In this document: piece by piece, positions 17,700 through 64,000 of the stretch | How positions within the stretch are numbered: position 1 is the first letter of the stretch | Layout: every line of letters starts with the position of its first letter | Notes under the pieces: model-generated | Seen by the model: only the letters and a program-made list of their open reading frames with translations | The model's database searches: none | Told to the model about the DNA's origin: nothing | Translations under genes and position numbers: made by a program | Source of the DNA: a virus | Direction: 5' to 3' (one strand) | IMG/VR virus record: IMGVR_UViG_3300030328_002321 | Span: 21,959-85,958 of that record | DNA length: 64,000 bases

Positions 17700-17900
17700 A
17701 TGGCTGAAACCGTTAGCCCTTGCTGTGGCTATGAATACAGCGAAGTAACATTTCCATGTGGATGCGAAATGTACCAATGTAACAATCCCAAATGTAACGA
17801 TCATTTTGATGAGCCTATAGATGACTATGAATATAGACAACAAAGGCTTGATGAAATTGCAGAAGCACGTGCAGATGAAGCTCGTGATATGGGATACTAA
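17700..17900 (+). CDS. Small zinc-finger protein
   Basis: A 66-residue protein with Cys at 8, 9, 20, 22, 27 and 32 and His at 35, in the order CCGYEY ... PCGCEMYQCNNPKCNDH. This is a compact zinc-ribbon, followed by an acidic helical tail (QQRLDEIAEARADEARDMG). It carries the AACCAATTAAA leader and precedes rIIA by 25 bp, so both probably share a transcript. Such small zinc proteins can bind nucleic acids or host polymerase; no specific role is evident. Confidence 0.72.
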   Translation: MAETVSPCCGYEYSEVTFPCGCEMYQCNNPKCNDHFDEPIDDYEYRQQRLDEIAEARADEARDMGY

Positions 17901-17904
17901 TATA

Positions 17905-17915
17905 AACCAATTAAA
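17905..17915 (+). promoter_or_regulatory. AACCAATTAAA leader motif (decides rIIA start)
   Basis: An exact copy ending 10 nt before the ATG at 17926. It supports that ATG as the start of the rIIA-like gene rather than the in-frame ATG at 17821, which lies inside the preceding gene. Confidence 0.5.
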
Positions 17916-17925
17916 CACAAATTTT

Positions 17926-20670
17926 ATGAGTATTAAAACTATTGATAAGCCTATGCAAGGTAGCGCCGGCATAGCAAAGAAAATTAACAAAGGCGCTGAG
18001 AAGATGGTATTTGACATTCTTCAATCTACACAATATTCTATGCCAATTCAGTCTACTATTAGAGAACTTGTTACCAATGCATGTGACTCTCAGCGAGAAA
18101 AAGAAGTAGCAATAGAAATATTGACAGGTAAAAAGAAAGTTGAAGACTATTACATAGAACGCCATGGTGCGCAGTATGAAGATAGTAATTTTAATAAAAA
18201 TTATTATAATCTAGCACATTTACAACATGATAAAAATCATATTGATTTATTATATACACAAAATGAAGGTGTTGGATATTGTGATATATTTTCAGTTACT
18301 GATTATGGTGTAGGTATTGGATCAAGACGTTTAGAAGGTATATTGGAACTGGGTTATTCTACGAAAAGAAATACCAGTGAAAATTTTGGTGCCTTTGGTC
18401 TTGGAGCAAAAGCTGCATTATCAACCGGTGTAGATTTCTATACTATAGAAACTATATACAATGGTATGAGATTTAAATGCAACTGTTATAATTACAAAAC
18501 TGATTTTATTATACCAGCTTTTAATATAAAAACAGGAATGCAGAATAAATTTATAACTTTTAGTGACGGTAGTAAAGTATATTATGAGCATTCTAATGAA
18601 GTAAATCAAACTACTATATCATTTGGTGTAAAACGTCACAATCGTAATAAGTTTGAAGAAGCTATTGAAGAACAATTAATGTATTTTGACAACGTTAATT
18701 TTAATATTAAGTATGAGGGTGGTGAGTCTAGAGAAATGCATTTTAAAACTGAAGTACTTTACAACTCTAAAAACATAATAATTGGTGACAGTTACTATTT
18801 TAGTAAACCACATATTGTTCTTGTTAAAGATACAGATGCTTCTACAGGTATTAACTATGGTTTTATTGATTTTAAAGAACTAGAAATGCAACAAATGTAT
18901 GGTTGTGTTGCTTTCAAATGTCCTGCTAGACAAGTGGTCACTAATGAAGACGGTACAGAAACTGTATTACAAGAAGGTGTAGATGTTACTCCATCTCGTG
19001 AGAAAGTTATATGGAACGAAGCTACTAAAAAATACATTAAAAGTGTAATTGAGTCAGCTGCTCAAGAAGCTAGTGATATGGTGGAAGAGCAATTGGAAGA
19101 AACTGATTTCTTGAAATGGATTGATAAATGTAGATCTATTATATCTGGGGACTCTGGTGAAAATAAAATCTTAAGTAAGATTGCGCGGATTATTGATAAA
19201 GACTTAATTAAACCTAAGTTTGGTCCTGATCCTAGAATTAAATATAGTTCTATAACTAAATTATTTGATGGTCTAAAACTTATGAGACCAGTTTTAATAA
19301 ATAGTACTATGGAACGAGAACCAGTAAAAGATTGGGGTGGATTTGATGCTAAACATTTTTATGAAAGAAGAGAACAGTTTAGTAAATATAAAGATTCTTA
19401 TTTACAACAATTAGATATAGAAGATTCTTATCTATCTAATAAAGTTTGTACTTACACTTTAGAGGATTTAAACTCTAGATTTAGTGAGTCTATACTTAAA
19501 GCTACAGGTGATGCACAAGTTAAACTTTTGAATGAAAAAGCTAGAGTAACAGCTAAAAGAACAGCAGTTCTTAAGTTTATTGAAGCTTCTGAATGGTATA
19601 AAAACTATGATGAAGTAGAAGTACCTGAAGAGTTTATTACAAAATGTAAAGATATAGAAGAAGAGCAATTAGAAAAAGCTAAATATAATAATTTAACAGC
19701 TGCAGAGCGCCGTGAGATAGAAAAGCGGATGGTAGCATATACTGTTAGATGGGATGATCGTAAAGATGATAGGCTTACATTAGAAAAAATTGAGCCTAAA
19801 GCTAAAGATCTTATGGGTAGCTCTAATAGCATTTATTATTGTACTAAAGAAGATGAAGATAAAATGAAAGCTGCTGCTTTATTACTTAAAGAAGTTGTTC
19901 CACATTTTAAAGAAGTTTATCCAAATGCTAGTTGGCATGATAATGGTAATCAAAGAGAGTCTTCAAGTTATCCTATTTATTGGTATGAACATCCGCCAGT
20001 TAGATTTTTACAGTGGCAGCACAAAGGTGAGTATTATGAATGGGCTAATCCTAAACAAGGATGGGATACACCACAATTAATACGTGTTAGTCAAAATAAG
20101 GTTAAGTTTATTACACAAAACCCTAATGTTAAACACATTGACGAACTATTTTTACAATTAACAGATAATAACGGATATACTATGGACAATTCACTTATTA
20201 AATATTACACAGCACATAAATTAGAGAAAATAAATAAATTTAGATTTATGCAAGGTTTAAAATGTATACACCCTGAATTACAAGAAGATTATTGTGAACT
20301 CATGGATTTGAGGAATAATAATTATTCAGAATGGGAATACAGAGAGGTACGCAAAATGGCTCCCTCTATAATTAAGCATATGGATAAATTATATGAATTT
20401 CAAAAGTTTATAACAGACTGTGATGATTCAGATTTAATAGAAGAAAAGTCTAAAGAACTGTTTGTTTTGTCAGATATTAGTGAGGCTAAAGCTGCTGATT
20501 TGAATATATTAGCTAAGTATGATAATATAGTAGAATTTGCAGAAGAAGTTAAACCGCTATTAGATGAATTATCGTGTCTTGAGAGTAGAGAATGTGATAT
20601 GTCTCCTGAACTTGAGAAAGAGGTTAGAGTTTATTTAAGAGCTAAATCTAGAGAAGTATGGGAAGATTAA
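17926..20670 (+). CDS. rIIA: RIIA-like GHKL ATPase
   Basis: A 914-residue protein with an N-terminal Bergerat (GHKL/HSP90-type) ATP-binding fold. The N-box is ELVTNACDS (E47, N51, D54), G1 is DYGVGIG (126-132), and the lid and G2 region is GAFGLGAKAAL (about 155-165). A long helical, acidic C-terminal part follows. T4 rIIA is the classical phage member; with rIIB it protects against lambda Rex exclusion, by an unclear mechanism. An rIIB-like gene lies two genes downstream, which supports this identity. Start chosen at 17926 because of the leader motif and to avoid overlap. It is longer than T4 rIIA (about 725 residues). Confidence 0.82.
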   Translation: MSIKTIDKPMQGSAGIAKKINKGAEKMVFDILQSTQYSMPIQSTIRELVTNACDSQREKEVAIEILTGKKKVEDYYIERHGAQYEDSNFNKNYYNLAHLQHDKNHIDLLYTQNEGVGYCDIFSVTDYGVGIGSRRLEGILELGYSTKRNTSENFGAFGLGAKAALSTGVDFYTIETIYNGMRFKCNCYNYKTDFIIPAFNIKTGMQNKFITFSDGSKVYYEHSNEVNQTTISFGVKRHNRNKFEEAIEEQLMYFDNVNFNIKYEGGESREMHFKTEVLYNSKNIIIGDSYYFSKPHIVLVKDTDASTGINYGFIDFKELEMQQMYGCVAFKCPARQVVTNEDGTETVLQEGVDVTPSREKVIWNEATKKYIKSVIESAAQEASDMVEEQLEETDFLKWIDKCRSIISGDSGENKILSKIARIIDKDLIKPKFGPDPRIKYSSITKLFDGLKLMRPVLINSTMEREPVKDWGGFDAKHFYERREQFSKYKDSYLQQLDIEDSYLSNKVCTYTLEDLNSRFSESILKATGDAQVKLLNEKARVTAKRTAVLKFIEASEWYKNYDEVEVPEEFITKCKDIEEEQLEKAKYNNLTAAERREIEKRMVAYTVRWDDRKDDRLTLEKIEPKAKDLMGSSNSIYYCTKEDEDKMKAAALLLKEVVPHFKEVYPNASWHDNGNQRESSSYPIYWYEHPPVRFLQWQHKGEYYEWANPKQGWDTPQLIRVSQNKVKFITQNPNVKHIDELFLQLTDNNGYTMDNSLIKYYTAHKLEKINKFRFMQGLKCIHPELQEDYCELMDLRNNNYSEWEYREVRKMAPSIIKHMDKLYEFQKFITDCDDSDLIEEKSKELFVLSDISEAKAADLNILAKYDNIVEFAEEVKPLLDELSCLESRECDMSPELEKEVRVYLRAKSREVWED

Positions 20671-21521
20671 TAACTAAAGATATAAGAAAAACATTTAAGA
20701 TTCGTGCTTCTGGACGATCTACAGATTTTATATCTCCTAGTTTTGGACATGGCTGTTTATATAATTGTTCTTATTGTTATATGAAACGTCATAAAGATAA
20801 AGGTTTGTCTATTGCTGTAAATACCGGTGATATATTAACAGCGATTAATAATCATGTATATTTTACAACAGTAGATAAACCTAATCAAACTCATGCAGAA
20901 TACACCACTTATGATATTAGCTGTAACGAAGATTTTGCGTTGCATGCTAAATATCATGATTGGAAAAGAATATTTGAATTCTTTAGAGATCATCCTATAG
21001 CTATGGGCAGTTTTGCAACAAAATTTGTAAATCCTGACTTAATTAACTTTGATCCTCAAGGTAAAATACGTATTAGATTTAGTTTAATGCCTCAGCATAA
21101 AGCAGATCTACACGAACGAGGTACTAGTAAAATAATAGATAGAATAAAAGCTATTGATGCATTTATTGATGCTGGATACGATGTACATGTTAATTATAGC
21201 CCTATTATAGTATATGATGGATGGCTAAAAGATTACAAATATGTATTTGATATGATGAACGATTATGTTACATATAAAGATCAAGTTTTAGCAGAATGTA
21301 TATTTTTAACTCACAATTTTAAGAAGCATGTTATAAATTTAGGTAGACACCCAGATACAGAAGTAGATTTATGGGTTCTAGACAAACAAGAAATAAAGCG
21401 CTCTCAATATGGAGGAGAAAATATTAGATATAAACTAGGAATGAAATCTGAATATATAAAACAATTTACAAAATTACATGAAGCAACAATACCGTGGAAT
21501 ACAATACGGTATATTTTTTAA
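20658..21521 (+). CDS. Spore photoproduct lyase-like radical SAM protein
   Basis: A 287-residue radical SAM enzyme with the 4Fe-4S motif CLYNCSYC (C33, C37, C40; CxxxCxxC). The body matches the SplB/DNA-repair-photolyase type: ATKFVN, RFSLMPQ, HERGTSKIIDRIKAIDAFID, then AGYDVHVNYSPIIVYDGW. SplB family enzymes reverse the spore photoproduct (a thymine dimer) by a SAM radical, without light. It sits between rIIA (13-bp overlap) and rIIB, so it shares their transcript. It may repair or modify thymine in phage or host DNA. Substrate is inferred from family only. Confidence 0.83.
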   Translation: MGRLITKDIRKTFKIRASGRSTDFISPSFGHGCLYNCSYCYMKRHKDKGLSIAVNTGDILTAINNHVYFTTVDKPNQTHAEYTTYDISCNEDFALHAKYHDWKRIFEFFRDHPIAMGSFATKFVNPDLINFDPQGKIRIRFSLMPQHKADLHERGTSKIIDRIKAIDAFIDAGYDVHVNYSPIIVYDGWLKDYKYVFDMMNDYVTYKDQVLAECIFLTHNFKKHVINLGRHPDTEVDLWVLDKQEIKRSQYGGENIRYKLGMKSEYIKQFTKLHEATIPWNTIRYIF

Positions 21522-61538: not shown

Positions 61539-61901
61539 TTATGCTTTTTTCCAGTATGCGTACTCTACATTACAAGTAGCAGTATCTGCTCTAGCTTCTA
61601 AACCAGCTCCGTCATTTATAGCAAAGAAAGTAAATTCTCCTGGACCTACTCTAGCATATTGTACACTAGCTGTAGTTTGAAGAACAACGAAATTTGTTGC
61701 ATCTAAATTTTTAAAGTAAAAATAGAATACTCCACTTGTTCCTTCATCTACTAATTCTTGGTTGTCAGCTGTTGTTATTGCTGTTCTAGACAATCCTACA
61801 CTAGGCGTAGTTGTTGACGCAGTATTTGTAACAGTAAGATTTAAAGCATCGCTTGAAATATTACTACTAGATAATGTTAATTTTGCTGTTAATGTTGCCA
61901 T
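61539..61901 (-). CDS. Small beta-rich virion protein
   Basis: A 120-residue, Thr/Ser/Ala-rich beta protein (TAKLTLSSSNISSDALNLTV; FYFYFKNLDATNFVVLQTTA) ending in YAYWKKA. It resembles short decoration or appendage proteins of marine phages and has no signal peptide. It begins the run of genes after the long GC-repeat protein, 9 bp after its stop. Role unknown beyond probable virion structure. Confidence 0.64.
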   Translation of the reverse strand: MATLTAKLTLSSSNISSDALNLTVTNTASTTTPSVGLSRTAITTADNQELVDEGTSGVFYFYFKNLDATNFVVLQTTASVQYARVGPGEFTFFAINDGAGLEARADTATCNVEYAYWKKA

Positions 61902-61910
61902 AATTTTTAT

Positions 61911-64000
61911 TTATTTATTTTTAATTATTATTTTTCTTTTTACGCTTCCATCATCATACATATAAAATAGAAGTCTATTGTTAATTTTATTTACAGGTCT
62001 ACCTAATAAATCTGTAATTCCAATTAAATTTTTATCTGTCCTTTTAGGTAAAGGTCCTGACCAATTATCATTACAATGATCATATGTTAATTGACATATG
62101 TTATCCCAACTATTATTACAACAATATTCATCTACATCGATAACCCATGCATAACAAACATCGTTTAACCAATAAGGGTTACCTGGACCTGTAATACATC
62201 CTGCATCATATAAGCAAGATAAAGAATCATCTACATTAGCGAACGCATCATAGTTATAAGCATTTGCATCCATGCATCCTTCAATCGCAGTAATACATGA
62301 GCCATTATCTGTGTTAGCTGTTGAATCATAATTAATAGCCAAAGAATCAGTGCACCCATAAATAAAAGGAATGCAGCTAAAATCTTCAGTATTAGCCATT
62401 GGATCATAGTTGATACTATTAGGATTAGTACAACCAAATATAAAAGGAATACAACTTCCGTTATCAACATTTGCTAAAGGATTATAGTTAAACATAGTAC
62501 TATCTGTACAACCATATATAGGTAATATACAGGAGAAATCATCCGTATTTGCAAGTGGATCATAATTAAGTGCTACCGGATTAGTGCATCCATATATATA
62601 AGGTACACATGTTCCATTATCTACGTTTGCTAACGGATCGTAATTAAACATTGTACTGTCTGTGCATCCGTAGATTGGCAATATACAACTAAAATCATCA
62701 GTATTTGCATTAGGATCATAATTTAATGCACTAGGATTTGTACATCCTAATATTACCGGTACACAACTACCATTGTCTACATTTGCTAATGGATCATAAT
62801 TAAAGGCTGTTGAATCCATACACCCATAAATTGGTATTATACAAGAAAAGTCATCTGTATTTGCATTTGGATTATAATTTAAAGCCACTGGATTAGTACA
62901 TCCTAAAACAACTGGGATACATGTTCCGTTGTCTAAATTTGCTAACGGATTATAGTTAAAAGCAGTAGAGTCCATACATCCATATATAGGAAGTATACAA
63001 CTAAAATCGTCTGTATTTGCCGTTGCATCAAAATTTAATGCTATAGGATTTGTACACCCATAAATAAAAGGGACACAAGATCCGTTATCTACATTTGCTA
63101 ATGGATTGTAATTATACATAAGAGAGTCAGTACATCCATAAAGTATTGTTATACATGATCCATCATCAGTATTAGCATTTGCATCGTAATTTAAAGAAGT
63201 TGGATTTGTACATCCATATATATAAGGTATACAAGAACCGTTATCTGTATTAGCTAATGGATCGTAATTAAATTGTGTTGAATCAGTACATCCATAAATA
63301 AATGGAATACAACTACCATTATCTGTATTAGCAAAAACATCATAATTCCACATAAAAGGATCTGTACACCCATATATAAATGGAATACAAGAACCATCGT
63401 CCGTATTTGCTAATGGGTCAAAATTCCACATTGTTAAATCTATACAACCTAAAACTACAGGTATACAAGACCCATCATCGGTATTAGCTAAACTGTCATA
63501 ATTAAATGCAATTGGACTTGTACATCCATAAACAAATGGTATACAGCTTCCATCATCTATATTAGCAGCGCTATTATAATTAAACATTGTATTATCCATA
63601 CATCCATATACTACAGGTACGCATGACGCTGAATCATTAACATTAGCTAATGGATTATAATTAAATGCTGTACTATCCATACATCCAACAATAGTAGTTA
63701 CACATCCACCATCATCAACTGTAGCTAATGAATCATAGTTAAATGCAAGTGGGTTCATACAACCTAATATAATAGGTATGCATGTCCCATCATCTACATT
63801 AGCAGAGTCAGCGTAATTTAATGCCGTTGAATCTGTACATCCATAAACTATTTCTATGCAATTATCACCACAATAAGGTGTTGCATCATATATCATATAT
63901 TCAGGTGCTTCAAAGTTTTGCAGTGCACCTTGTCCATTATTATAAAATGGATTTGTTCCTTCAGCCATTAAAGTATCACCATAATCATTCACGAGTGTAA
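61911..64000 (-). CDS. Cys-repeat surface protein with type IX-like C-terminal tail (5' end cut)
   Basis: At least 693 residues; the frame stays open to the right edge, and the apparent start at 63992 is a GTG with coding-like sequence before it, so the true N-terminus lies outside. About 21 tandem repeats of 26-30 residues follow the pattern YGCTDSTxFNYDPLANxDxG then SC. Then comes a DVDEYCCNNSWDNICQL block found in Bacteroidetes surface proteins. The last residues (ITDLLGRPVNKINNRLLFYM, then YDDGSVKRKIIIKN) look like a type IX secretion sorting tail. It may be a phage fibre with host-derived domains or a protein sent to the host surface. Confidence 0.78.
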   Translation of the reverse strand, partial: TLVNDYGDTLMAEGTNPFYNNGQGALQNFEAPEYMIYDATPYCGDNCIEIVYGCTDSTALNYADSANVDDGTCIPIILGCMNPLAFNYDSLATVDDGGCVTTIVGCMDSTAFNYNPLANVNDSASCVPVVYGCMDNTMFNYNSAANIDDGSCIPFVYGCTSPIAFNYDSLANTDDGSCIPVVLGCIDLTMWNFDPLANTDDGSCIPFIYGCTDPFMWNYDVFANTDNGSCIPFIYGCTDSTQFNYDPLANTDNGSCIPYIYGCTNPTSLNYDANANTDDGSCITILYGCTDSLMYNYNPLANVDNGSCVPFIYGCTNPIALNFDATANTDDFSCILPIYGCMDSTAFNYNPLANLDNGTCIPVVLGCTNPVALNYNPNANTDDFSCIIPIYGCMDSTAFNYDPLANVDNGSCVPVILGCTNPSALNYDPNANTDDFSCILPIYGCTDSTMFNYDPLANVDNGTCVPYIYGCTNPVALNYDPLANTDDFSCILPIYGCTDSTMFNYNPLANVDNGSCIPFIFGCTNPNSINYDPMANTEDFSCIPFIYGCTDSLAINYDSTANTDNGSCITAIEGCMDANAYNYDAFANVDDSLSCLYDAGCITGPGNPYWLNDVCYAWVIDVDEYCCNNSWDNICQLTYDHCNDNWSGPLPKRTDKNLIGITDLLGRPVNKINNRLLFYMYDDGSVKRKIIIKNK
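62211..63845 (-). repeat. About 21 tandem Cys repeats (78-90 bp units)
   Basis: Units of roughly 26-30 codons, each with two cysteines in the frame GC(T/M) ... NY ... AN.D(D/N)xSC. From about the tenth unit two types alternate (TDST..FNY.PLANVDNGSC and TNP.ALNYDPNANTDDFSC), so copying seems to have occurred in two-unit steps. Likely prone to copy-number change. Confidence 0.8.

Follow-up and report, generated by a model that had tools for sequence, protein, structure and literature searches.

The 64,000-nucleotide stretch of DNA analyzed here (the window) covers the right-hand part (64 kb; G000:C1:21959-85958) of the 85,958-bp virus record IMGVR_UViG_3300030328_002321. At its right end, the minus strand encodes a cysteine-rich repeat protein, hereafter the cargo. 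Judging from its sequence and those of its relatives, the cargo is probably a disulfide-rich surface protein that is made during infection, exported by the Sec pathway and the host type IX secretion system (T9SS), and belongs to a conserved phage surface module that alters the cell surface. In viral relatives, the signals at both ends of the protein are conserved, the gene is linked to one for a predicted outer-membrane β-barrel, and the C-terminal tails have been swapped between two types. From the sequences, we infer Sec export, passage through the T9SS, and a surface location.

The cargo protein and its viral relatives

The cargo open reading frame (ORF), confirmed within the window, is open at its 5′ end and encodes 695 amino acids (aa), 50 of which are Cys. 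The window reaches the last base of the record, so the gene continues past the contig end. The 21 Cys repeats, with a spacing of almost always exactly 26 residues, are followed by WLNDVCYAWVIDVDEYCCNNSWDNICQLTYDHC and then by the C-terminal tail LIGITDLLGRPVNKINNRLLFYMYDDGSVKRKIIIKNK. This agrees with an earlier sequence-only reading, which had described about 21 Cys repeats, a CC..WD..C block, and a sorting-like tail. The features of this region are as follows.

61911..63998, minus strand: partial cargo ORF of putative T9SS type (695 aa), from ORF calls and relatives; the signal peptide and ~430 residues are expected beyond the contig end
62208..63845, minus strand: Cys repeats of 26 residues, 21 in tandem and typified by YGCTDSTAFNYDPLANVDNGSCIP, from repeat count and spacing and a repeat search of the phage's own genome
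62073..62198, minus strand: CC..WD..C module CITGPGNPYWLNDVCYAWVIDVDEYCCNNSWDNICQLTYDHC, which also recurs in tandem in secreted Flavobacteriales proteins whose tails are type A-like (L093)
61914..62030, minus strand: tail b, a short (36- to 38-aa) C-terminal sorting-like tail, from profiles and an AlphaFold2 model with three strands (predicted local distance difference test score, pLDDT, ~70)
61539..61901, minus strand: gene directly downstream of the cargo (120 aa), with no assigned role and with relatives in 40 of 80 cargo-seeded loci

Scanning viral contigs yielded 188 confirmed relatives of the cargo; 80 were fetched, and 67 of the proteins are complete. A Sec signal peptide is found at the start of 65 of these 67, and their C-terminal ends carry either a type A tail with the YPNP(T) motif (30 proteins) or the tail b of the window (37 proteins). 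Sister proteins with the same body contain a type A domain above the model cut-off: TIGR04183 exceeds it in 26 of 50 relative-bearing contigs, and PF18962 matches the proteins of 23 of 40 relatives. A MAM domain is present in 7 of 40 relatives (best E = 2.6e-24). In 160 loci, either tail is found on 130 of 2,580 ORFs, in all cases at the C terminus and never internally; the two seed sets have some contigs in common, so some of these loci depend on one another. When only complete ORFs of 150 aa or longer are counted, a signal-peptide-like hydrophobic start is found in 116 of 119 tail-bearing ORFs versus 185 of 903 tail-less ones (p = 2e-65).

The window protein itself contains no type A domain above the cut-off of TIGR04183 or PF18962, and no T9SS model from either Pfam or NCBIfam matches it, its tail included. 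The search with T9SS models that had been proposed in the sequence-only reading thus succeeds with the sister proteins but not with the window protein alone. As the relatives show, the window tail is unmatched because the libraries contain no models for the short tail, rather than because the signal is absent. Weak matches of the repeats to LysM_RLK, SufB, and similar families were dismissed as effects of Cys-repeat composition, and a Foldseek search with the C-terminal piece of the cargo (model mean pLDDT, 56) found nothing.

Tandem CC..WD..C modules make up two Flavobacteriales proteins (L093:4230-6654) that have a signal peptide and a type A-like tail and represent a possible source of the phage module. 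A version with 71% identity is encoded by L092, a contig of 3.8 kb that was assigned to a metagenome-assembled genome (MAG) of Nitrosopelagicus and is probably a misbinned phage fragment.

The missing N-terminal part can be viewed through L012, a 69-kb relative (up to 77% identity) in which genes from the two ends of the window's contig follow one another without a break, in the order thioredoxin-like gene, cargo, 120-aa gene, DUF5675 gene, and 81-aa gene. Since both ends are contiguous there, the window's contig is most simply a circular permutation broken within the cargo gene. Signal peptides open the cargo proteins of L012 and L017 (MKKLLLILLLLPFIGLGQ), and the window protein would, by analogy with its relatives, start with one as well. 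The signal-peptide check suggested earlier was thus positive for nearly all complete relatives, while the start of the window protein itself falls outside the contig.

A short tail shared by Flavobacteriales and phages

The tail b profile matches 178 of 299 genomes from the order of the Flavobacteriales MAG UBA6165, with up to 22 copies per genome, and 2 of 297 genomes in a phylum-wide draw. The bacterial proteins bearing it differ in body and include an arylsulfotransferase, a polyhydroxybutyrate depolymerase-like hydrolase, a multicopper oxidase, and leucine-rich repeat and laminin-G proteins; a signal peptide is present on those readable in full from the start codon. T9SS models match none of ten such proteins. 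A hidden Markov model (HMM) built solely from the bacterial C-terminal tails recognizes residues 658 to 693 of the window ORF (E = 2.9e-15), with no other significant match among 955 stop-to-stop ORFs (next best, 0.048). The bacterial tails were originally collected with the phage profile, so this set is not fully independent. By this HMM match and its presence on unrelated secreted enzymes of the bacteria, tail b is a host-type signal. The resemblance to a sorting tail noted in the sequence-only reading is thus real, even though the type A models miss it. The proposed export by the host's T9SS has good sequence support in the conserved signal peptide, the type A tails in sister proteins, and the host-derived tail in the window. 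The tail alone points to Flavobacteriales as the hosts.

In a tree of the barrel proteins encoded near the cargo (99 loci), tail type switches 16 times by parsimony, compared with ~32 times in shuffles, and at least 5 of the switches sit on strongly supported branches. The lower number of switches indicates that the tail is inherited, yet it has been repeatedly exchanged, as expected if both tails serve one job.

Short T9SS C-terminal domains (CTDs) of 40 to 55 residues have been described in Prevotella intermedia, named as the sole species reported to have both CTD lengths. They contain motifs B, D, and E and are predicted to form a single three-stranded sheet, with strands equal to strands 3, 6, and 7 of the long CTDs; five of them have experimental cleavage sites (PMC11969387). 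In Hbp35, according to work cited in PMC11969387, the final 22 residues are absolutely required for the secretion and attachment of GFP. Compared by description, tail b might be of this kind: its length, three modeled strands, and conserved G-R/K and late Lys would fit, but it lacks the glycine of the GxY motif (motif D). It is found in Flavobacteriales and phages, whereas the short CTDs of PMC11969387 are from P. intermedia.

The window's genome contains an extra gene (L001:69-587, minus strand) between the thioredoxin-like gene and the contig junction. Its 172-aa product, a second secreted protein of the same phage, has a signal peptide and the C terminus NNIYDINGKVITNLKNNTIYIRKNKKFIRL, which seems closer than tail b to the short CTDs of the Prevotella type. 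A tail of this kind is also found on relatives in L023, L155, L160, and L195.

The linked barrel and neighboring genes

A 352-aa barrel protein is encoded in the window's genome at contig positions 1853-2911 (minus strand) and has relatives in 68 of 80 cargo loci. The cargo and barrel genes share a strand in all 119 cases and are at most 4 kb apart in 117 and touching in 22. Of 37 barrel-seeded loci flanked by 5 kb or more on each side, 36 encode a tail-bearing protein; the remaining one, L181, comes from a contig on which the cargo gene, as seen in L053, is cut off by the end.

The structural model of the barrel protein (pLDDT 74; predicted template modeling score, pTM, 0.67) matches outer-membrane β-barrels, NanC being the first (E = 3.4e-6; template modeling score on the target, 0.51). 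The barrel family (51 sequences, A5) has no meaningful sequence match in Pfam, PHROG, or PDB and no match in INPHARED. It includes at least 564 viral relatives and zero members among the 299 genomes of the bacterial order, in a search without a positive control. The 352-aa protein is thus a predicted outer-membrane β-barrel found only in phages, often with a lipobox-like signal at its start. The idea of a PorV/SprF-type or PorP/SprF shuttle finds no support in sequence or fold: there is no such Pfam match, and the 50 best fold matches are other outer-membrane barrels, with no T9SS shuttle named among them.

In all 117 loci that encode a thioredoxin-like protein with a signal-like start, its gene shares the cargo's strand; it is a neighbor of the cargo in most loci and immediately upstream of it in 48. 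The CxxC motif is absent from 134 of 136 members of this family; the thioredoxin-fold protein of the window's genome (L001:724-1053, minus strand) has WNDANK in place of the expected WCGPCK. A 93-aa protein (L001:1053-1334, minus strand), conserved in 130 loci, consists of one transmembrane (TM) segment and a charged coiled-coil-like tail, a spanin-like layout, yet it has no family match. A 1,527-aa protein from the structural gene run (L001:4822-9405, minus strand) contains the same Cys repeats (E = 4.5e-14) without a signal peptide and could pair with the secreted cargo.

The phage is crAss-like. Its genome encodes the major capsid protein typical of Crassvirales (PF23898, E = 3.9e-80), which is found in 20 of 50 records, that of the window among them, as well as a DNA polymerase of family A and a DnaB-like helicase. 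The genome region of the cargo also encodes a DUF5675 protein and a holin (phrog_3427, E = 1.7e-30); the holin family is found in 31 of 80 cargo-seeded loci. In INPHARED, the cargo has a single weak match (11% of the query), to the marine (seawater) single-cell virus MH319765, and the barrel has none, so a cultured model was not found. Other products of the window include a spore photoproduct lyase-like protein (20658-21521; PF20903, E = 2.7e-28) and a 949-aa protein (17821-20670) with a match to HSP90/gyrase-type ATPases (PF13589, E = 2.2e-6).

Proposed role, alternatives, and known systems

After its synthesis in the infected host, the cargo would leave the cytoplasm through Sec by means of its signal peptide and become oxidized in the periplasm. 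The host T9SS would carry it through the outer membrane by means of its host-type C-terminal signal, for which sister phages seem to employ a canonical type A CTD or a short three-strand tail interchangeably, and it would then be held on the surface or released from the cell. There, it would act within the surface module that includes the phage-only barrel and, usually, the thioredoxin-like periplasmic protein. Given these surface address labels and the presence of the gene/barrel pair in well over 100 phage contigs, infected cells probably gain a phage-made coat or adhesin. The likeliest benefit would be a changed surface of the infected cell, resulting in superinfection exclusion (adsorption block) or in sticky cells. 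Both would suit a repeat-built, sometimes MAM-bearing protein, and we lean slightly toward altered adsorption, although any benefit, whether receptor masking or adhesion, is speculative. More tentatively, the phages might possess a display system of their own, in which the barrel would receive or anchor the cargo, the thioredoxin-like protein without CxxC would be its periplasmic partner, and tail b would be an uncatalogued short T9SS signal class of Flavobacteriales that phages trade freely for the canonical one.

Several points weigh against T9SS export. Tail b and the type A tails match only weakly in hhalign (probability, 3.5%; P = 0.012), too weakly for homology of the two to be claimed. 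Signal peptides were judged by a hydropathy rule, a proxy for a signal-peptide program, and that of the window protein would fall past the contig end and is unseen. Co-occurrence with the T9SS is uninformative: SprA is nearly universal in the order (292 of 299 genomes), which leaves this comparison without power, and 3 of the 178 tail b genomes have no SprA match.

The particles of tailed phages are put together in the cytoplasm, and a protein that has been exported is not available there. The cargo is therefore unlikely to be a virion fiber or decoration, that is, a captured host adhesin whose tail is a relic; capture of an adhesin as a virion fiber had been the second option of the sequence-only reading. 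Its gene does lie in the late/structural half of the genome, close to tail-fiber-like ORFs, and the 1,527-aa protein places Cys repeats in the structural gene run. However, that run is thereby occupied by a distinct, signal-less protein, whereas the cargo relatives retain the signal peptide in all but two cases and a functional-type tail in all; their tails are swapped for canonical CTDs, with no decay, and export signals at both ends are kept in more than 100 loci, which contradicts the fiber option. It is also rather improbable that the cargo acts in lysis, as part of an envelope-breaking set with the barrel and the 93-aa protein (one TM segment) in which it would assist in opening the outer membrane. 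The TM segment and coiled-coil-like tail of the 93-aa protein, the nearby holin and DUF5675 genes, and the lipobox-like signal that often begins the barrel would all fit such a role, but a repeat protein of 600 to 1,500 residues with a T9SS tag and an occasional MAM domain is unlike known lysis factors, and the holin family is near the cargo in only the 31 loci mentioned above. The bacterial counterparts of the repeats, the CC..WD..C module, and the tail might suggest host contamination or mis-assembly, with a bacterial gene in a viral bin. This explanation, which has next to no probability, is refuted by synteny, as identical phage gene order flanks both sides in independent contigs; the crAss-type capsids in the records, the window's own among them, and the failure to find the linked barrel in the bacterial genomes also speak against it.

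Phage cargo proposed for the host T9SS has precedents. Cryophage encodes proteins with type A sorting domains, for which use of the host T9SS has been proposed and superinfection exclusion suggested (PMC7468147). The cargo is similar in being phage-encoded and in the type A sorting domains of its sisters. However, the Cryophage cargo consists of endoglucanase, GH39, and PA14 proteins that vary among variants of one phage (PMC7468147), whereas in the present case many contigs share one body plan, accompanied by the linked barrel found only in phages and by a short class of tail. The crAss-BACON cluster 2 likewise includes crAss-like contigs, in which ORFs near the head genes contain T9SS sorting domains; the consulted portion of that source deals with BACON domains and gut contigs and does not describe the barrel or the short tail (PMC6949934). 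The pairing of a cargo gene with an outer-membrane protein gene resembles that of type B CTDs with PorP/SprF (PMC12618676), but the phage tails are type A or short and the barrel has no PorP/SprF match. In the open-licence literature, no description was found of the conserved module, of the short tail in Flavobacteriales or phages, or of tail exchange. Relative to searchable papers, the dedicated module and the short tail class are new, while phage T9SS cargo itself is already known.

The 36- to 38-aa tail, frequent in Flavobacteriales yet absent from the Pfam and NCBIfam libraries, represents an annotation gap, exposing a short sorting tail that current family libraries do not recognize. Phage use of the host T9SS would be more than a curiosity, namely, a conserved, linked strategy of many crAss-like phages that are uncultured, which opens a testable route to how these phages may alter the surfaces of infected Bacteroidota.
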